A stretch of DNA of 33,173 nucleotides, from contig JAAYVH010000251.1 in NCBI GenBank assembly GCA_012517255.1, positions 1 through 33,173 of the forward strand, given 5' to 3'. Shown here piece by piece: positions 2-10,961 of this stretch. Under the pieces are notes generated by a model. It made no database searches, was not told the DNA's origin, and saw only the letters and a list, made by a program, of their open reading frames with translations. Numbering within the stretch: position 1 is the first letter of the stretch; the number at the start of each line of letters is the position of its first letter. This DNA comes from Chthonomonadales bacterium. GTDB taxonomy: Bacteria > Armatimonadota > Chthonomonadetes > Chthonomonadales > CAJBBX01. Position numbers and translations under genes: made by a program.

Positions 2-961
2 CCGCGCCTTGAGGCCGCCGACGCAGATCTGCGACGCGTCTTCGTTCTCCCCGCCGATCGCGTCGTCACGGTTGCCGATGTTGACATGATCGGAGCAATG
101 ATCGCCGCCGAAAACATCGGATTGCTCGTGCTCGACCCCCTCGCAGCGTTCCTGCCGGGCGCCGCCGACACCCACAGAGACGCCGAGGTACGCGCCATCA
201 TGATGCCCCTCGTCCTCATGGCGCGCCAACGCGGGTGCGCTGTCCTCACGGTTCGGCACCTGAACAAGGGACAGGGGCAGGCCGCCGTCTATCGAAGCGG
301 ATGTTCCATCGCCTTCACCGCCCTCGTCAGGTTCGCCTTCGCCGTCGCCCGTCACCCCGACAACCGGGCCCACCGAGTCCTCGCCTGCGTCAAAAACAAC
401 CTCGCCGCCGAACCGCCCAGCGTCGTCTACGAGCTCGTGCCCGCCAACGACGTCGCACGGATCGCCTGGCGCGGCACGTGTGAGCTGACCGCCGAGCAAG
501 TCCTGAACCGAACCGCCGCCGACATGCCTGCCGATGATGCCGCGCAGTTCCTCCTCGACGCCCTCGCCGACGGACCCAGACCATCCCGCGACATCGAGCA
601 GCAGGCCGCAAGGCTCGGCATATCCGACCGGACCCTTCAGCGCGCCCGAAAGGACGTTGGCGTCACAGCCTATCAGGAGGGCCGCTGCTGGATGCTCCGC
701 CTCCCCGACCGTCAGACCGCCAACCGCTCATCACGTGGCGCTCTGAACCCTGCTCAGACCGCCAACCTCAGAACGCCACCGTGGCGCTCTGACAGTGGCG
801 CTCTGAACCCTGCTCAGGCCGCCAACCCTGCGCCGAGTGGCGCTCTGAACCCTGCTCAGGCCGCCAACGATTCACCACTTGGCGCTCTGAACCACGGTCA
901 GACCGCCACCCGTTCGCCACGTGGCGCTCTGACCGAACCCGACGACTTCGAGGAGTTCTAG
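2..961 (+). CDS. AAA/RecA-fold ATPase (RepA-like, AAA_25 type), 5' end beyond window
   Basis: The frame is open to the window edge, so the N-terminus with the Walker A loop is missing; 319 residues are visible. The first third resembles the RecA-like core of RepA/AAA_25 ATPases of plasmids, phages and integrated elements: a Walker B-like strand LLVLDPLAAFLPG, a VLTVRHLNK strand and a basic VKNNLA segment. Around visible residues 180-235 is a winged-helix-like C-terminal domain containing SDRTLQRARKDVGV. The last 80 residues are low-complexity repeats (GALNPAQ, QTAN) encoded by the 11-bp element array at 712-932. Family knowledge says such ATPases are hexameric helicases or primase partners loading at an origin. 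The next gene starts 3 nt after the stop, so they are probably co-transcribed. Family is fairly sure; precise role is inferred. Confidence 0.8.
   Translation, partial: PRLEAADADLRRVFVLPADRVVTVADVDMIGAMIAAENIGLLVLDPLAAFLPGAADTHRDAEVRAIMMPLVLMARQRGCAVLTVRHLNKGQGQAAVYRSGCSIAFTALVRFAFAVARHPDNRAHRVLACVKNNLAAEPPSVVYELVPANDVARIAWRGTCELTAEQVLNRTAADMPADDAAQFLLDALADGPRPSRDIEQQAARLGISDRTLQRARKDVGVTAYQEGRCWMLRLPDRQTANRSSRGALNPAQTANLRTPPWRSDSGALNPAQAANPAPSGALNPAQAANDSPLGALNHGQTATRSPRGALTEPDDFEEF
712..932. repeat. Array of twelve 11-bp elements (TGGCGNYCTGA) in direct and inverted orientation, inside the ATPase gene
   Basis: Forward copies (TGGCGCTCTGA) start at 736, 782, 796, 838, 880 and 922. Reverse-complement copies (TCAGACCGCCA, TCAGGCCGCCA or TCAGAACGCCA) start at 712, 754, 768, 814, 856 and 898. 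Start-to-start steps are 24, 18, 14, 14, 14, 18, 24, 18, 24, 18, 24, so most copies repeat on a 42-bp period, close to four helical turns. A forward copy followed 7 bp later by a reverse copy can form a hairpin with one mismatch. Copies 768 and 782 are read in different frames from the rest (RTP and WRSD instead of QTAN and GALN), so the DNA, not the peptide, appears conserved. This looks like an iteron-type protein-binding array or origin; function is inferred. Confidence 0.85.
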
Positions 962-964
962 GAC

Positions 965-1198
965 ATGGACATCCGCGACCTGTTCCCGAAAATCGCCGCC
1001 GCCGGCGTGACGCTCCGCGTCGTGGACGGCGCCCTGCGCGCCGGACCCGTCGAGGCCCTCACGGACGAACTTCGCGCCGCCATCCGCGAGCATCGAGAAG
1101 CCCTTCTCGCCGCCCGCTGCCAGCACTGCGGCGAGCCCACCGCCGGATACGGCTTCTGCGACGCCCACGACCCATTCGCCGACCTGCCCGCCCGATGA
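965..1198 (+). CDS. Small TubC_N-like protein with C-terminal zinc-finger motif
   Basis: 77 residues. The N-terminal 45 residues (a DLFPKIAAAGVTLRVVDG strand-helix segment, then ALTDELRAAIREHREALLAA) have the pattern of the TubC N-terminal docking-domain family, best known from NRPS/PKS subunits but also found as stand-alone proteins beside ATPase/primase genes of mobile elements. Residues 52-67 contain C-x2-C-x9-C-x2-H (CQHCGEP to FCDAH), a likely zinc site. The start follows the ATPase stop by 3 nt, with GAGGAG just upstream as ribosome binding site, so the two are likely translated together. It probably adapts or docks onto the ATPase; that is inference from neighbourhood. Confidence 0.65.
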   Translation: MDIRDLFPKIAAAGVTLRVVDGALRAGPVEALTDELRAAIREHREALLAARCQHCGEPTAGYGFCDAHDPFADLPAR

Positions 1199-4045: not shown

Positions 4046-4831
4046 CTATCCGTCCTTCCCCGACCCCACCGACCTCCTCGGCCTTGCCGTCCACGCCGAC
4101 ACCGCCAGCGTCGCCGCCGTGGCCGCGTTGACCCACCGCCAGGTCTCCTTCCGTAGCTCGACCTCGACGATCGGATTGTAGAATGCCGCCAGAGCCCACA
4201 TCGTCCAGACCCAGCCCGACTGCCCCTGACGCATGGCGCGCGCTCCCGCATACGCGCATACGACGCACGTCACCCAGCGCAGCACCGTGTAGTAGTCGTG
4301 CGACCGCCTGCCCATCGCCAGAAGCAGCACCGCCGCGGCCACCACCCGAACGGGACCATCGCTTCGGATCCACGGCATCATCGGCCCCCACAGCCTTCGC
4401 GTCCATCGCCCCAACGACCGCACGCCGCTGGCCAACCGACGGCGCATCCTCAGGGCCAACACCAGGACCACCGCAACAGCCCCCAGACCCGCCGCGCCGC
4501 CGTAAACTGCCCGAACCGGAACCGTCCATACCCGCTCGTGCACCATCACGGTGAACACCCGCTCCGGCTCCCCGAACCTCCGCTTCCACTCGTCAGCCCA
4601 GATCTTCTCGAACGGTTTGGCATTCCTGTTGCCGCGAACGCGCCAGTAGTGGACCTTGGGCGTCACGCCGCGCTTGGCGTCCGTACCCCACGAGCGGATA
4701 ACGTCGTCTGGCACCTCCCGCATGAGCACAGGGTCTTTGCGGACTACACGAATCACCTCAGCTTCGGTCGGCTCACGCGGCGTCTCGATGTCGAATGTGC
4801 GGCGACCTACCGTCACGATGTACCTTGGCAT
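4046..4831 (-). CDS. Multi-pass membrane protein with C-terminal DUF6804-like segment
   Basis: 261 residues. Residues 1-100 are soluble (MPRYIVTVGRRTFDIETP onward). Hydrophobic helices follow at about 106-127, 160-173, 182-198 and 206-220. The last 100 residues (DYYTVLRWVTCVVCAYAGARA, then GWVWTMWALAAFYNPI and the end of the helix near LRKETWRWVN) match the pattern of small DUF6804-type membrane proteins, whose function is not established. The ATG is preceded by GGAGGGG about 7 nt upstream and lies 3 nt after a TAG in the upstream frame, suggesting coupling to a gene there. A fusion of a soluble domain to a DUF6804 unit is one reading. Confidence 0.65.
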   Translation of the reverse strand: MPRYIVTVGRRTFDIETPREPTEAEVIRVVRKDPVLMREVPDDVIRSWGTDAKRGVTPKVHYWRVRGNRNAKPFEKIWADEWKRRFGEPERVFTVMVHERVWTVPVRAVYGGAAGLGAVAVVLVLALRMRRRLASGVRSLGRWTRRLWGPMMPWIRSDGPVRVVAAAVLLLAMGRRSHDYYTVLRWVTCVVCAYAGARAMRQGQSGWVWTMWALAAFYNPIVEVELRKETWRWVNAATAATLAVSAWTARPRRSVGSGKDG

Positions 4832-4901
4832 CGCCTATCGCCCCCTCCGGCTATTCGCCGGTTTCTCTCTGGTCCCCAAGTACGACAGCCATTCATCGCC
4901 G

Positions 4902-5099
4902 CTAGATTGCCCGCGAGTGCTTTGCCTGGTGGCCGGTCGTTGCCCCTGCCCTATCGGCACGATCTGTGTCGGCACGTACACGCCAACCGACGGCGTCTGC
5001 TGTTGCCGTCTCGCCCTCGGCGTCGGGAGCGGATGCCCGCCTGTTCCGTTGGGCTCGGTATGCGTCCGCCCTTTGGCGGCCTTCAGCGTTCCTCTTCAT
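4902..5099 (-). CDS. Doubtful small ORF, possibly frameshifted
   Basis: 65 residues from an ATG that overlaps the TGA of the upstream ORF in a TGATG junction (5097-5101). The product is charged and Arg/Ala-rich, with no family match. A second minus frame is open from 5095 to the TAG at 4835-4837, has higher third-position GC, and ends in a protein-like stretch (SSGDEWLSYLGTREKPANS) just 3 nt before the next gene. A single frameshift near 4970-4990 would join this ATG to that ending and give one protein of about 87 residues. Whether that reflects a sequencing error, a decayed gene or chance cannot be told from here. Confidence 0.25.
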   Translation of the reverse strand: MKRNAEGRQRADAYRAQRNRRASAPDAEGETATADAVGWRVRADTDRADRAGATTGHQAKHSRAI

Positions 5100-5416
5100 C
5101 ACGGGATTGTTGTCCCCAGCCTGCGGGTTTGCTGCCGCTGCGGTCTCCGTGATTGGCCGACCGTCGCCTTGCCTCGGCGTCCTGTTGGCCACGCCCGCCC
5201 AACACCCGACTCGTTCGCCCCCCGACAGATCCGGAAAGCCTTGCCCCTGCCCTGCTCCGCCTCGTCCGCCGGTTCCTTTCGGCCCCTGTTCAACCCGCGT
5301 TCGGCCTGAATCGTGAAAAACGCCGATCCATATCCGCTGGCCCCTCTGCTGCGTACCCCTCCCCTGCCCCATCCCCTCCTGCGGCGTGCCTGCGTGTGCC
5401 TCACGACAATGCGCAA
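5099..5416 (-). CDS. Doubtful Arg-rich small ORF between hicA and the membrane protein
   Basis: 105 residues, Arg/Gly-rich, with no recognised family. Arguments for it: third-position GC is higher in this frame than in the competing minus frame for most of its length; it lies in the same orientation as its neighbours; and its TGA forms a TGATG overlap with the next ATG. Arguments against: composition is biased and no domain is visible. A competing minus frame (start at 5456) is open across the same stretch. The 650 bp between 4832 and 5481 is therefore best described as probably coding but unresolved. Confidence 0.25.
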   Translation of the reverse strand: MRIVVRHTQARRRRGWGRGGVRSRGASGYGSAFFTIQAERGLNRGRKEPADEAEQGRGKAFRICRGANESGVGRAWPTGRRGKATVGQSRRPQRQQTRRLGTTIP

Positions 5417-5481
5417 TGCAGCTCCTGCCCTTATGCAAGCGCACGACCCGCCCCATCCTCCGGGGCGCCGCGCAGCAGGGA

Positions 5482-5712
5482 CTACACCATGTCCCGGAAC
5501 TCCTCGACCGTCAGGCCCAGATCGTCAATGATCGCGGCGAGCGTCTTGGGCTTGAGCGTTCGCCCGGGGTGAATGGGGATAACCACGCGTCGCCCGTCGC
5601 GCTCGCGGAAGTACACGGCATGACTCCCGCGCTGTCTATCGAACAGGAAGCCCGCACGAATCGCGACCTTCTCCACCTCCCGGCCTGTCACGACCGGAAG
5701 GTTCCGGCTCAT
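5482..5712 (-). CDS. hicA: HicA-type toxin (mRNA interferase)
   Basis: 76 residues, typical HicA length. It shows the double-stranded RNA-binding-like fold pattern: TGREVEKVAIRAGF (helix 1), the catalytic-His strand RQRGSHAVYF with GSH, then VVIPIHPGRTLKPKTLAAIIDDLGL. HicA proteins cleave mRNA and are held inactive by HicB; that is family knowledge. The ATG lies inside the 3' end of hicB with an ATGA overlap (5709-5712), so the two are translated together, antitoxin first. A toxin-antitoxin pair on a putative integrated element would help keep the element. Confidence 0.88.
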   Translation of the reverse strand: MSRNLPVVTGREVEKVAIRAGFLFDRQRGSHAVYFRERDGRRVVIPIHPGRTLKPKTLAAIIDDLGLTVEEFRDMV

Positions 5713-5930
5713 GCCGCGACCTCGACAGGCCGAACGTACAGATCCTCGACGGGCGGCGACTGCCCTTGCGCCTCCAGGCTCTCCAGATACGCCGCCATGG
5801 CTTCGCGGACGTTCTCGAGCGCCTCATCGAGCGTGTCGCCCTGGCTATGGCACCCGCGCAGCGCCGGTACGAAGGCGTGGTACCCCCCGTCCTCTTCCCG
5901 CTCCAGAATCACCGTGTAATGCGCTCTCAT
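5709..5930 (-). CDS. hicB: HicB-type antitoxin, short form
   Basis: 73 residues. The partial RNase-H-like HicB fold is clear: YTVILEREEDGGYHAFVPALRGCHSQGDTLDEALENVREAMAAY contains the standard GGYxAxVPxLxGC and GDTxxEAxxN signatures. The protein ends shortly after this domain (YVRPVEVAA), so the C-terminal ribbon-helix-helix or HTH segment that lets many HicB proteins repress their own promoter is absent. It is the first gene of the minus-strand group; the A/G-rich stretch before its ATG (AAAGGA and GGAAGG) can serve as ribosome binding site. The 54-bp tandem repeats lie about 110 bp upstream. Confidence 0.85.
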   Translation of the reverse strand: MRAHYTVILEREEDGGYHAFVPALRGCHSQGDTLDEALENVREAMAAYLESLEAQGQSPPVEDLYVRPVEVAA

Positions 5931-6039
5931 GCCTTCCGTCGTCCTTTCCCATGCCCTCCGCTCTCAGCCCCGTGCCCCGCGCGCCCCGGCTCCATGCCCG
6001 AGTCCCGCAGCGCCTCCTGCCACCGACGTCGCCTGGCGC

Positions 6040-6263
6040 CTCCCCGCATTCCCCATGCCCTTGAAGGACACATCGGTACGCCCGGAGGAGTGGCTTCCCC
6101 GCATTCCCCATGCCCGTCAAGTACACATCGGTGCGCCCTGAGGAGTGGCTTCCCGGGTTCCCCGTGTCCGCAAGGCTCACATCGGTCCGCCGCAAGGAGC
6201 GGCTTCCCGGGTTCCCCATGTCCGCAAGGCTCACATCGGTACGCCATAAGGAGCGGCTTCCCC
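6040..6263. repeat. Four tandem 54-55-bp imperfect repeats
   Basis: The core ACATCGGT occurs at 6070, 6125, 6179 and 6233, steps of 55, 54 and 54. Each unit also contains a TTCCCC/TTCCCGGG-rich segment followed by CATGCCCG or CATGTCCG, and GGAGTGGCTTCC or GGAGCGGCTTCC after the core. The last two units are nearly identical, the first two more diverged. Both strands are open across the repeat because 54 is divisible by three, but the translations have no protein-like features, so I treat it as non-coding. It lies upstream of hicB and left of the tRNA junction. Function unknown; possible binding-site array or noncoding repeat. Confidence 0.8.
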
Positions 6264-6465
6264 CCTCAACAGAAGCCACGGTCGAGCCCCCACATCGTCG
6301 GAGCGTACCGCACCCCGCCCGTTCGCGGCCACGCGCCTTGCCTCAAAGGACATGACCCTTCGCCGCTTCGCCGGCCATCCCTGGCCCGTAGGCGCACGCG
6401 ATACCAATATGATATACTAACAACTGACATTCTGACTGGCGGGTTCTGGAGGCGTTCCGGACTGC

Positions 6466-6505
6466 CGGTTTGAGCGTGATACGACGCGGTTTGAGCTCAA
6501 AACCG
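6466..6505. repeat. Two direct copies and one inverted copy of CGGTTTGAGC beside the half tRNA
   Basis: CGGTTTGAGC occurs at 6466-6475 and 6487-6496, 21 bp apart (two helical turns). An inverted copy with one extra A (GCTCAAAACCG) follows at 6495-6505, overlapping the second to create the perfect palindrome TTTGAGCTCAAA. The block ends 5 bp before the conserved tRNA anticodon stem. Placement next to a putative attachment core suggests arm-type recombinase or excisionase sites, which is inference. An AT-rich patch at about 6401-6422 lies just to the left. Confidence 0.6.
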
Positions 6506-6509
6506 TCAC

Positions 6510-6556
6510 TCTGCTTCCCAAGCAGAGGGCCGCGGGTTCGAGTCCCGTTTCCCGCT
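6510..6556 (+). other. 3' half of tRNA-Gly(CCC), probable attachment site (att) of an integrated element
   Basis: Visible parts: anticodon stem TCTGC/GCAGA with loop TTCCCAA (anticodon CCC, 6517-6519), variable region GGGCC, T-arm GCGGG-TTCGAGT-CCCGT (6532-6548), acceptor 3' strand TTCCCGC (6549-6555) and discriminator T. The matching 5' acceptor strand GCGGGAA and a D-arm are absent: upstream sequence gives no pairing acceptor strand at tRNA distance. The fragment therefore is not a working tRNA. Integrases commonly use the anticodon-to-3'-end part of tRNA genes, leaving an intact tRNA at one end and a 3' half at the other. This orientation predicts the element to the left and native chromosome to the right, matching the gene content. 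Confidence 0.7.
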
Positions 6557-6569
6557 CATACATTACATC

Positions 6570-6611: not shown

Positions 6612-7865
6612 ATGCACATCGAAGCTGTCGAGACGACCACTCTAGCGAATGGTCTTCGCGTCGTGTCGGAACGCGTGCCGTACGTTCAGTCGGCCTCCAT
6701 CGGCGTCTGGGTAGACGTGGGAGCGCGGCATGAGAAACCGGGCGAACGGGGTATCACGCACTTCATCGAGCATATGCTGTTCAAGGGCACCGAACGGCGT
6801 TCGGCCAGGGACATCGCTTCGGAGATCGAATCGGTCGGCGGATCGCTCAATGCGTTCACCGACAAGGAATACACGTGTTATTACGGCCGGGCGCTGTCGG
6901 AGCATGCGCCGCTCGTGCTCGATGTCCTCGCGGACATGATTCGGAACTCCACGCTGGATCCTGAGGAGTTCGCACGCGAGAAGAACGTCGTGATCGAGGA
7001 GATCAAGCGCTACGAGGACACGCCCGACGACCTCGTGCACGATCTGTTCGCTCGCGCCGTATGGCAGTCTCATCCGCTGGGCCGGCCTGTCATCGGCACG
7101 GCTCGCAGTGTCGGGAGCCTCACCGTCGAGCGCGTCCGGAGCTTCATGCGTGACCACTATGTGCCTTCGCGGATGCTCGTGGCTGCGGCCGGCAACATCA
7201 CGCATCGGTCTCTGGTCCGTCTCGCCACTCGGCTCTTTGGCGACATGCCGGACCGATCGGTTCCGGCTCCGACGCGATGCCCGCTTGCCCGTGGCAAGCA
7301 GGTTCGCAGGCACAGGCGGTCGGAGCAAGTGCATTTCTGTCTGGGCGGTCCCACCTTCGCTCAGACCGATGACCGGCGCTATCCGCTCACCATCCTCGAC
7401 ATGGTCCTCGGCGGCAACATGAGCTCGCGACTCTTTCAGGAGGTGCGTGAGAAGCGCGGTCTAGCCTATGCCATCGGCTCCTATGCGACGGCGTTTCGGG
7501 ACTGTGGCCTGTTCACCATCTACGGCGGCACCAGCCCGACGACGCTCCAGCAGGTCCTGGATGTGACTGCCGAGGAACTGGCGACCGTACGGCGGGAGGG
7601 GCTCAGAGACGACGAGATCGCACGTGCCAAGACGCAGATACGAGGCGCCATGGTGATCGGGCTCGAGAACATGAGCGGCCGCATGATGCGCCTCGGCAAG
7701 TCAACGCTCTACCATGGACGGGTCATCCCGCTGGATGAGATATCAGCCTGCGTTCAGAGAGTTACCGCGGAGGACATCCTCGAGGTCGCTCACTACACGC
7801 TGGACCCCGAACGTCTCAGCTTCGCTGCGATCGGCCCGTTCCCGCGAGGAGGCGCATCGCTGTGA
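6612..7865 (+). CDS. M16-family zinc peptidase (processing-peptidase/PqqL-like)
   Basis: 417 residues, normal for single-repeat bacterial M16B peptidases. The inverted zinc motif HxxEH is at His50, Glu53 and His54 (HFIEHMLFKGT), and the third ligand Glu130 lies exactly 76 residues further on (NVVIEEIKRYEDTP), so the enzyme should be catalytically competent. The C-terminal M16 domain carries the standard GGNMSSRLFQEVREKRGLAYAI segment. Proposed role: ATP-independent degradation or processing of peptides in a clam-shell dimer. GGAG at 6602-6605 is the ribosome binding site. It overlaps dapB by 4 nt. This is the first gene of the chromosomal part. Confidence 0.92.
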   Translation: MHIEAVETTTLANGLRVVSERVPYVQSASIGVWVDVGARHEKPGERGITHFIEHMLFKGTERRSARDIASEIESVGGSLNAFTDKEYTCYYGRALSEHAPLVLDVLADMIRNSTLDPEEFAREKNVVIEEIKRYEDTPDDLVHDLFARAVWQSHPLGRPVIGTARSVGSLTVERVRSFMRDHYVPSRMLVAAAGNITHRSLVRLATRLFGDMPDRSVPAPTRCPLARGKQVRRHRRSEQVHFCLGGPTFAQTDDRRYPLTILDMVLGGNMSSRLFQEVREKRGLAYAIGSYATAFRDCGLFTIYGGTSPTTLQQVLDVTAEELATVRREGLRDDEIARAKTQIRGAMVIGLENMSGRMMRLGKSTLYHGRVIPLDEISACVQRVTAEDILEVAHYTLDPERLSFAAIGPFPRGGASL

Positions 7866-8611: not shown

Positions 8612-9148
8612 GTGTCCATCGCGTTGCGCGCACCCGAGCCGTTGCTTCCCGATATCCTCGCGCCGGATCTGGACGTCGTGTTCATTGGCGCGGCGCCCAG
8701 CCCGTGCGCCGCGCGTTTGGGACACTACTATGCCGGTCGGGGCAATCGGTTCTGGCAACTCCTGTTTCAGGCAGGGCTCACGCCGCGGGAACTGGATGCC
8801 AGCGAGGACAGCACGGTGCTTCGCTACGGCATCGGCCTCACAGCGATCCTGCCGCAGTGCATCTCAACGATGAACTGCCTCCTCCCGCCGCCGACCGACG
8901 AGGATCGCGCGGCTCTGTTCGAGAAGCTCAGGCACTACGGCCCGAGGATTCTGTGCTACAACGGCAAAGACGTGTACCGTATGTGCATGGGGGAGGCGGA
9001 TCCGCCGTGGGGACTGCAGTCGGACGACTTCGATGGCATGCTGACCTACGTGGTGCACAGCTCCAGCGGTCGTGCCGACCGATGGGCCGCGGACCGACTT
9101 CTCCTGTATCGGGAGCTTGGCCAGCTTGTCCGCGGCCTCGCTCGATAG
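8612..9148 (+). CDS. Mug/TDG-type uracil(thymine)-DNA glycosylase
   Basis: 178 residues, GTG start, 3 nt after dapB. Uracil-DNA glycosylase superfamily: N-terminal strand DVVFIGAAPSPCAARLGHYYAGRGNRFWQLLFQAG, where GHYYAGRGNRFW matches the Mug/TDG substrate-pocket signature, then LRYGIGLTAI. The C-terminal motif VHSSSGRADRW stands where the family usually has NPSG-like residues. Role: removal of uracil or thymine from mismatches. Motif 1 reads GAAPSP rather than the NPG(L) of E. coli Mug, so the catalytic residue and substrate range may differ. A related superfamily branch is possible. Confidence 0.82.
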   Translation: MSIALRAPEPLLPDILAPDLDVVFIGAAPSPCAARLGHYYAGRGNRFWQLLFQAGLTPRELDASEDSTVLRYGIGLTAILPQCISTMNCLLPPPTDEDRAALFEKLRHYGPRILCYNGKDVYRMCMGEADPPWGLQSDDFDGMLTYVVHSSSGRADRWAADRLLLYRELGQLVRGLAR

Positions 9149-9187
9149 CCTCGGAACGCTTTGCGCCATGACTCCGTATCAGTGCTG

Positions 9188-9502
9188 ATGGACAGGAAGA
9201 CCAATCCACGCGCGACTACATGGGCGCTGCTTGCGGCGCTTCTGACGCTCTCGCTCGGCCTGCCCGGCGTCGTTCGCCACTCTTGCGGCGCTGATGATAC
9301 GGGCTCGACCGGATCCACCATCCGCAGCCTCCATGTCTGCGTCGCGTGCCAACTTTCCTCGGTCGAGCGGACCGAGCCCCCTGCAGCCCCGGTGTACACA
9401 ACCGAGGCCTCCGGGCCGTCTCAGCCTCTCCGTGCTGTCTTCACGCTCGTCCGGACGCCCAACTTCCCCGTAACGCTCCGCGCCCCTCCCACGCTCTCCT
9501 AG
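9188..9502 (+). CDS. Small secreted or membrane protein with three Cys, zinc-operon leader
   Basis: 104 residues from the ATG at 9188; an upstream in-frame TTG (9161) would add 9. A short basic N-terminus precedes a hydrophobic stretch ATTWALLAALLTLSLGLPG, likely a signal peptide or anchor. It is followed by HSCGADD and CVACQL, whose CxxC and His could bind metal, and a Pro/Thr-rich tail. No named family is recognised. It precedes the zinc-transport genes on the same strand, suggesting a role in metal handling, but the 154-bp gap with a hairpin means it could be independent. Confidence 0.5.
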   Translation: MDRKTNPRATTWALLAALLTLSLGLPGVVRHSCGADDTGSTGSTIRSLHVCVACQLSSVERTEPPAAPVYTTEASGPSQPLRAVFTLVRTPNFPVTLRAPPTLS

Positions 9503-9600
9503 CTGCGTCATCGTTTGTCCCGGTCAGGTACGGACCCTGGCTGGTCACGCACCTGGCCGGTCCCGGGCTTCAGACAAGGTCAGAGACTCCGGGCTCAGCA

Positions 9601-9619
9601 AGCACGGCGGATCCGTGCT
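9601..9619. promoter_or_regulatory. Hairpin upstream of the zinc-transport genes
   Basis: AGCACGG (9601-9607) pairs with CCGTGCT (9613-9619) across a 5-nt loop, 38 nt before the ATG of the outer-membrane protein gene. It could be an attenuator-like element, a terminator for the small upstream gene, or an operator (as DNA it is a 19-bp inverted repeat). No recognisable Zur box or known riboswitch core was seen in 9503-9656. Confidence 0.35.
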
Positions 9620-9656
9620 CAGGCTATGCGCAAACCAACGCACACAGGAGACAACC

Positions 9657-10961
9657 ATGCTCTATTCGCGCTTATCCATGCCGATCATGGCGCTGGCGGC
9701 GACGCTCACGCTCGTTGCCGTTAGAGCCACGCCGGCAGCAGCGCAGACGGACGGTAAGTCGGAGATATCCGAGCTTCGAAAGATCATCGAGGACCAACAG
9801 AAGCTCATCCAACAACTGAAAGAGCGCGTCGAAGCGCTCGAGTCCGGCCGCACGAAAGAGGAACCCTCAGACGAGCTGCCGCCGGCCGAGATTCCCGCCA
9901 CTCCCTTCGAGCGCGCCAGCGGCGGCGCAGCCTTCATGCCTGACCTGGCCGTGATCGGTAACCACCGCGGCACGTTCTTCGTTCCTCGCGGCTATGACGG
10001 GCGCAATCGGTTCGAACTCGGCGAGCTGGAGATCGCCCTGCAGCAGCCCCTCTACACAGGCATGAGCTTCTTCGCGACGCTCGCAGCAGGATCCGACGCA
10101 GGCTTTGGGCTCGGCATCGAGGAGGCCTATGCATCCCTCTCGCGGCCCTTCAAGGCTCCGTTCGACGCCGTGATTGGCAAACGGCGGTTGCAGTTCGGCA
10201 AGCTGAACCCGCTGCACCCGCACGCCTGGCGTCACGTCGATCAACCCGCTCCCATCGCGGCGTTTCTTGGCGAGGAAGGTCTCTTCGGCAACGGCAGCTC
10301 CATCAACTACACGCTGCCGATCGCAAACCTGTTCGCGAACGTCGAAGTTGGTCTCTGGGGCAGCGCCGAAGCGCACGCACATGCCGAAGAAGACCACGAC
10401 GACGACGAAGGACACCATCACCATGCTCATCCCGGCGTCGGCATCGTTGGTGACATGCCTGCGGCCCGCGTCTGGCTGTCGCGAGCTCTCGGTTCCTCGA
10501 CGGAGATCGAGATCGGCGGCAGTCACGCCTTCGGAAAGGCCGACAACGGCGACAACATCCGTCTGACCGGCGCGGACTTCACCTACCGCACGTACCCTTC
10601 GGCCTTCAGTCGCCTGCAGCTTCAGGCTGAAGCGTTCTGGCACAATCGCCGCGACCGCGAAGAGGGGACCGGCTCTCACACGCGATCCGGCCACTACGTA
10701 TTGCTTAGCTACGCTCCGGACAAGTACTACGAGTACGGCATCCGCTACGACAACACACGCTACCCGTGGCCCATCGAAGGCCGCGAGCAGAGCCTGTCGC
10801 TCATCGCGACGCAACGGCTGACCGAGGCTACCCTGGCTCGCCTCCAACTGAAGCTCGGTGACCGAACCAGCGATATCTATCTGCCGGCGCGCAAAGGCTT
10901 CACAGAGGTCTTCTTGCAGTTCATCTGGGGCGCCGGCTCGCACAAGCATCCGCTGCAATGA
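9657..10961 (+). CDS. Outer-membrane beta-barrel protein with His-rich loop, likely zinc entry
   Basis: 434 residues from the ATG at 9657, chosen because AGGAG lies 8 nt before it; the frame is open further upstream. Signal peptide at 1-30 ending TPAAAQ. A coiled coil (about 35-62, EISELRKIIEDQQKLIQQLK) is followed by a linker and a barrel with alternating aromatic strands, ending in F-x-Q-F-I-W-type residues. Around residues 242-260 is a loop of His/Asp/Glu (AHAHAEEDHDDDEGHHHHAH), typical of zinc-binding proteins. The genes behind it are znuA-znuC-znuB-like, so it probably passes zinc across the outer membrane; it has no TonB-type plug. Role inferred from neighbours plus the loop. Confidence 0.75.
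   Translation: MLYSRLSMPIMALAATLTLVAVRATPAAAQTDGKSEISELRKIIEDQQKLIQQLKERVEALESGRTKEEPSDELPPAEIPATPFERASGGAAFMPDLAVIGNHRGTFFVPRGYDGRNRFELGELEIALQQPLYTGMSFFATLAAGSDAGFGLGIEEAYASLSRPFKAPFDAVIGKRRLQFGKLNPLHPHAWRHVDQPAPIAAFLGEEGLFGNGSSINYTLPIANLFANVEVGLWGSAEAHAHAEEDHDDDEGHHHHAHPGVGIVGDMPAARVWLSRALGSSTEIEIGGSHAFGKADNGDNIRLTGADFTYRTYPSAFSRLQLQAEAFWHNRRDREEGTGSHTRSGHYVLLSYAPDKYYEYGIRYDNTRYPWPIEGREQSLSLIATQRLTEATLARLQLKLGDRTSDIYLPARKGFTEVFLQFIWGAGSHKHPLQ

Follow-up and report, generated by a model that had tools for sequence, protein, structure and literature searches.

Genes and features at the start of the window

The window, that is, the whole stretch of 33,173 nucleotides analysed here, shares its first base with contig C95 of a Chthonomonadales bacterium, and the 5' part of the gene found there is therefore cut. 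What remains on the forward strand (2-961, stop codon 959-961) is the 3' part of a primase-helicase gene, which encodes positions 90-194 of the AAA_25 domain followed by a winged-helix domain (residues 175-236; 524-709, forward strand), delimited by AlphaFold2 modelling and by the half-site covariation described below. The recognition helix of this domain spans residues 209-219 and the wing lies near residue 230. The model is confident both in the core and in the winged helix, with a pLDDT of 92-98 across residues 181-230. The C-terminal tail (710-958, forward strand) is encoded by an array of short repeats and is predicted to be disordered (pLDDT < 50, residues 245-319). Directly 3' of the primase-helicase gene is a gene for a small TubC_N-domain protein (965-1198, forward strand; PF18563, 31.6 bits), an arrangement seen in seven loci, namely the window and six more.

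Full-length relatives are composed of a Zn-ribbon/Toprim primase, an AAA_25 helicase and a C-terminal helix-turn-helix region or winged helix. The RecA-like core of AAA_25 (PF13481) scores above cut-off in the window protein as well as in its relatives, and 115 of the 131 relatives with uncut ORFs carry a Walker A motif. Compared with the PDB, the family profile matches RSF1010 RepA (1g8y, E 0.0084) and RadA, and a Foldseek search with the modelled core retrieves DnaB, RadA, KaiC, T7 gp4 and RSF1010 RepA (1olo). When the winged helix served as the query in Pfam, PHROGs and the PDB, no informative relative was found. The window gene is thus the 3' half of a Zn/Toprim-AAA_25-winged-helix primase-helicase, and the array-bearing gene, described in the initial annotation as being of helicase type, is identified by its domains, profile and modelled core as a replicative primase-helicase.

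An element integrated at tRNA-Gly(CCC)

The 5' part of the gene, comprising CHC2, Toprim and AAA_25 positions 16-83, was located in the same genome at the end of contig C2 (L227:4600-5619) and contains the Walker A motif GDPGLGKS. Contig C2 breaks off at the residues LLSAEDD and the window opens with PRLEAA; about six residues are missing between the two contigs, because relatives read GEDDxADTxxPRLEAAGAD across the break. We infer that C2 and C95 are joined in one gene.

Along C2 the order is an intact tRNA-Gly(CCC) at the left end (L227:1820-1892), an adjoining tyrosine integrase (Phage_integrase, E 4e-37), a ribbon-helix-helix protein, an HTH_3 protein, the CHC2/Toprim part and the start of AAA_25. 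At 6510-6557 (forward strand), 48 bp from the 3' end of tRNA-Gly(CCC) are repeated and form the right attachment site, recognised from the intact tRNA at the left end and from the single copy in relatives. At this site, two genomes from the same family carry just one tRNA-Gly, which is intact, and in one of them (G006) a homolog of the window peptidase gene (6612-7865) lies downstream. Judged by its integrase, the intact tRNA and the attachment-site copy, this is an element of ~10 kb integrated at tRNA-Gly, of which C2 holds 3.8 kb and C95 holds 6.6 kb, and the earlier suggestion of an integrated element is borne out.

In a genome of the same genus (G001:C34:54722-57728, L215), two tRNA-Gly copies stand 2.9 kb apart and enclose an insert collinear with window positions 4134-6558; the window replicase gene has no match at that tRNA-Gly site. 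The insert is therefore a reduced or separate passenger element, and the right part of the window element may itself be a separate or reduced piece. This right part encodes a DUF6804 protein on the reverse strand (4046-4831, 73 bits). Two further tandem repeats were also observed, one of 54 bp in four copies near the right end of the element (6041-6262), which is not obviously coding, and one of 30 bp in 2.6 copies (1661-1737) within a small reverse-strand ORF (1646-1930).

The array of half-sites

Twelve half-sites, TCAGRNCGCCA/TGGCGNYCTGA, occupy positions 712-932 and are regarded here as the iterons of a putative origin on the basis of exact matching, codon randomisation, stop-region enrichment and covariation. 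Exact matches to TGGCGNYCTGA start at 712, 736, 754, 768, 782, 796, 814, 838, 856, 880, 898 and 922, with spacers of 13, 7, 3, 3, 3, 7, 13, 7, 13, 7 and 13 bp, which reproduces in full the twelve copies in both orientations, and the spacers, of the initial annotation. Some 0.24 matches would be expected in the whole window, and twelve were never reached in dinucleotide shuffles. Elsewhere in the same genome the 54 matches are scattered, and no second array of this word was found.

The copies are best grouped into convergent dyads of the form TCAGRNCGCCA ... TGGCGCTCTGA, set 24 bp start to start. The first dyad (712-746) joins a reverse-strand half-site at 712-722 to a forward-strand one at 736-746. 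It is followed by a nested double dyad with 14-bp steps (754-806), in which 754-764 and 768-778 on the reverse strand face 782-792 and 796-806 on the forward strand. Three further dyads complete the array, each with its reverse-strand half-site first: the third at 814-848 (814-824, 838-848), the fourth at 856-890 (856-866, 880-890) and the fifth at 898-932 (898-908, 922-932). A strongly AT-rich melting region is absent from the array.

Relative to ORF 2-961, ten of the twelve copies share one codon register and those at 768 and 782 are read in other frames, just as had been noted at the outset. Much of the array is made up of a 42-bp tandem repeat with 83% matches, so that the copies do not represent independent events. 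The tandem repeat and the predominance of a single frame could be taken to indicate an in-frame minisatellite or peptide repeat in which the DNA itself has no role, a reading that is already disfavoured by the coding sequence: the repeated peptide words are encoded by invariant codons (GALN is written as GGCGCTCTGAAC all 4 times), the peptide is predicted to be disordered, and randomisation of synonymous codons with the peptide kept yields a mean of 0.19 copies and a maximum of 3, against the 12 observed.

Arrays in related loci

Comparison was extended to a set of 145 related loci, comprising both bacterial genomes and viral contigs. A similar array lies at or just 3' of the stop codon in about half of 144 related genes of many phyla, and in about half of the homologs a clear array is absent by the metric used. 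Over the 144 loci, inverted-repeat coverage is highest at the stop codon (0.12, compared with ~0.03 elsewhere), the stop coincides with the best inverted-repeat window for 37 loci out of 136 where 7.0 were expected, and the best repeated 10-mer scores at least 6 in 38% of stop regions but in only 2.9% of control regions.

Every locus has its own word of ~10 bp. Among the 76 aligned words, 63 fit an xAG-containing half-site with the consensus AAGRTGSYCA; the order with the AG strand first prevails by 44 loci to 9, which corresponds to convergent pairs. The alignment took the better-fitting strand of each half-site, and the consensus was hence checked by position. At stops, AAGRTGNNCA is enriched 23-fold in genome loci and 10-fold in viral ones, and it is present in 34 of 144 loci compared with 5.2 expected; a control motif resembling the reversed letters reaches 0.6-fold in genome loci and 3.3-fold, from 5 hits only, in viral ones.

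With regard to position, 36 of 76 loci have the array wholly inside the ORF, 24 wholly past the stop and 16 in both places. Inside ORFs, same-orientation copies agree in codon frame in 55% of pairs, and one frame is kept in only 29 of 86 same-orientation groups. A test set beforehand was whether the codon frame varies in related genes while the DNA is kept, and these counts answer it in the affirmative. With arrays outside the ORF and mixed codon frames in relatives, selection therefore acts on DNA and not on peptide, as first proposed, and a peptide repeat has next to no probability left as the explanation.

Elsewhere in the family, same-orientation neighbours are usually 9, 19, 8 or 18 bp apart (8-9 and 18-20 bp) and convergent pairs 21-25 bp; by these spacing statistics the 42-bp phasing on one face of the helix put forward initially holds as a property of the window array but not as a rule of the family. 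Convergent repeats could also fold into RNA hairpins that terminate transcription or structure the 3' end of the mRNA; many arrays, however, consist of tandem same-orientation copies at the 8-9 and 18-20 bp steps, for which pairing is not needed. Dyad spacers in the related loci are AT-richer than their surroundings (0.47 vs 0.36, P 5e-6). In three circular plasmids carrying the gene, GC skew has no consistent extreme near the gene or array.

Another member of the primase-helicase family, distinct from the first, is encoded on a further contig of the same genome (G000:C112, L026/L035). Its array starts across the stop codon and has at least eleven half-sites with the word TAGGCGCTCA, in convergent pairs 24 bp apart.

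Covariation of winged helix and half-site

Across 57 loci, in which relatedness was handled by dropping close relatives only, half-site similarity correlates with winged-helix identity (r 0.37, permutation P 2e-4), and once the winged helix is accounted for it has no significant correlation with ATPase-domain identity (partial r -0.03). Residue-base pairs that covary at z > 3.5 are concentrated in the recognition helix (207-215), where they make up 6.7%, and in the wing (4.4%), compared with 0.5% for the other winged-helix residues and for the ATPase domain. Residue 230 (z 8.6) is the sole one above the 95% permutation maximum of 5.6, and the recognition-helix signals (z 4.8-5.2) fall just under it.

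In the residue-210 column, Arg accompanies C at base 8 in 16 of 19 cases and Ala accompanies T in 8 of 10; in the residue-213 column, Arg goes with G at base 6 (23 of 25), and Asp209 goes with A at base 4 in all six cases. D209 and R210 of the window protein are consistent with its own word, cAGAnCGCCA. As judged from these comparisons, half-site and winged helix coevolve, and the array word follows the winged helix and not the ATPase. Such coevolution is a further point against a peptide repeat. Covariation with a DNA-binding helix is not predicted by a role in RNA either, and hairpins in the transcript are accordingly most improbable as the function of the array.

A putative iteron origin

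In our judgement the array is quite probably the replication origin, an iteron cluster, of the integrated mobile element, situated inside the 3' end of its own primase-helicase gene and read by the winged helix of that enzyme. This is in essence what the initial annotation had envisaged, an integrated element replicating from within its own helicase gene, and the primase-helicase identity, the integration at tRNA-Gly and the winged-helix covariation support it. The array itself, the element with its attachment sites, the domain order, the kept position of arrays in relatives and the coevolution of helix and half-site are read directly from sequence; from these we infer binding, strand opening and origin activity along the following lines. 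The element would first be excised from tRNA-Gly(CCC). Each half-site of ~10 bp would be bound by the C-terminal winged helix of the enzyme, and where two half-sites converge, the proteins on them would face each other, head to head, with a short spacer between. Once bound, the AAA_25 rings, of DnaB/RSF1010-RepA type, would melt the DNA and load, with synthesis being primed by the fused Toprim domain.

Binding of the array by the winged helix could instead serve autoregulation, partition or copy-number control and not initiation. wHTH proteins encoded by elements are often repressors of their own operon, and the array may extend over the stop codon and is located ahead of the next gene, both of which would suit such a role. 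Here, though, the domain that reads the array is part of a primase-helicase and not of a repressor, the arrays stand at the 3' end and not at promoters, and the layout is that of proven PICI origins and of P4 crr, which makes a regulatory function unlikely in comparison with an iteron origin.

Comparison with known replicons

The principle of an initiator with iterons next to its own gene is already known. In SaPIs, the rep gene is immediately followed by the origin, whose iterons are bound by the C-terminal domain of Rep, SCCmec Cch2 being similar (PMC7581432). SaPI and PICI Rep-ori systems resemble the present one in having multiple short iterons directly 3' of an initiator helicase gene and C-terminal recognition, which is predicted here (PMC7581432, PMC6092414), as well as iteron sets around an AT-richer spacer and an integrated island with an integrase. 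They differ in that the Rep of SaPI and SCC is of D5/DUF927 type, whereas the enzyme here has a RecA/DnaB-like helicase, AAA_25, to which a Toprim primase is fused; the Pfam domains detected in it are AAA_25 and Toprim/CHC2, and neither D5_N nor DUF927 is among them. Unlike in SaPI/PICI, the array can also lie inside the ORF. Of the criteria applied to PICIs, iterons immediately 3' of the initiator gene have their counterpart here in array position alone, and an integrase with a tRNA attachment site is present (Phage_integrase 4e-37, tRNA-Gly(CCC), 48-bp copy at 6510-6557). No PICI genes were recognised in the examined part of the element.

The alpha protein of P4 has a helicase type other than AAA_25. 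It is nevertheless a Toprim primase-helicase with the same domain order as the enzyme here and a C-terminal winged-helix origin-binding domain (PMC4234260), and in both systems short repeats in both orientations are located just beyond or at the gene end. In P4 (X51522, L197), crr, a known replication site, starts 46 bp past the stop of the alpha primase-helicase gene and contains ten 8-bp repeats in both orientations. The P4 word AAGGTGAACA (type 1 repeats) fits the AAGRTGNNCA consensus. Homology of the alpha C-terminus to the winged helix described here was considered and none is detectable (hhalign probability 0.1), and since hhalign found no homology the likeness of the half-site words may be convergence; convergence and very remote kinship are both possible.

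P4 differs in possessing a separate ori besides crr, and it requires both (ori, 9086-9809; crr, 4291-4590), with the same repeats in each. By analogy, the window array could be an accessory cis site of this kind, with the main origin located elsewhere on the element. The window word, however, forms no second cluster in the genome, and the signal in relatives is limited to the surroundings of the stop codon; an accessory role is therefore rated as rather remote, and as less probable than a regulatory one.

Other replicons share single aspects with the putative iteron origin. Lambda O is no helicase and its iterons are in mid-gene; the likeness lies in the placing of initiator binding sites, putative in our case, within the initiator's own coding sequence. 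The RSF1010 RepA/RepB'/RepC system has a hexameric AAA_25 helicase, RepA, to which the enzyme here is related, and an iteron-based oriV comparable to the origin proposed here, but its three proteins share out what one fused protein combines here, namely primase, helicase and the binding of iterons (PMC4234260). For the archaeal plasmid pRN1, the essential origin is within 166 bp downstream of orf904 (PMC4234260). The orf904 product is, like the present enzyme, a multifunctional primase-helicase with a C-terminal winged helix, and differs in that its primase is archaeo-eukaryotic, its helicase belongs to SF3 and the origin is an iteron-free stem-loop (PMC4234260).

Significance and distribution

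What appears to be new is a class of Toprim-AAA_25-winged-helix replicases whose genes carry a half-site, diversified yet recognisable, in or at their 3' end, and which have a readable protein-DNA code. A description of the system was not found in the literature on TubC_N, AAA_25, DUF3991 and IME origins, among searchable papers that include few subscription ones. A survey of PICIs stated that their origin layout occurs in no other bacterial replicon (PMC6092414), and the present loci would extend a PICI-type layout to another helicase superfamily.

We lean towards a wider interpretation, in which these loci would represent a large class of replicons that are self-contained and occur across many phyla, phages and plasmids. 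A single Toprim-AAA_25-winged-helix protein would recognise and open an origin in or overlapping its own ORF, and helix and half-site would co-diversify under a readable code that sets incompatibility. An odd repeat in one metagenomic gene would then lead to a general rule, that in many mobile elements the primase-helicase gene has the origin at its 3' end or within it, where origins could be located and their words read from sequence alone. Dozens of natural protein/site pairs would become available for the study of how winged-helix specificity changes, and predictions could be made as to which elements are able to share or exclude one another's origins.

The class spans Armatimonadota, Planctomycetota, Chloroflexota, Actinomycetota, Proteobacteria and Firmicutes, together with viral contigs. 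A Firmicutes-type version with the order DUF3991-Toprim-AAA_25 is found on an 8.5 kb circular sequence (OY725856.1, L188) and on the Campylobacter coli plasmid pCOS502 (L196). Past the stop codon, both carry tandem repeats, an AT-rich centre and inverted repeats; this version as a whole is nearly identical in the two records, and on the circular sequence the gene is accompanied by a MOBQ relaxase and a serine recombinase.
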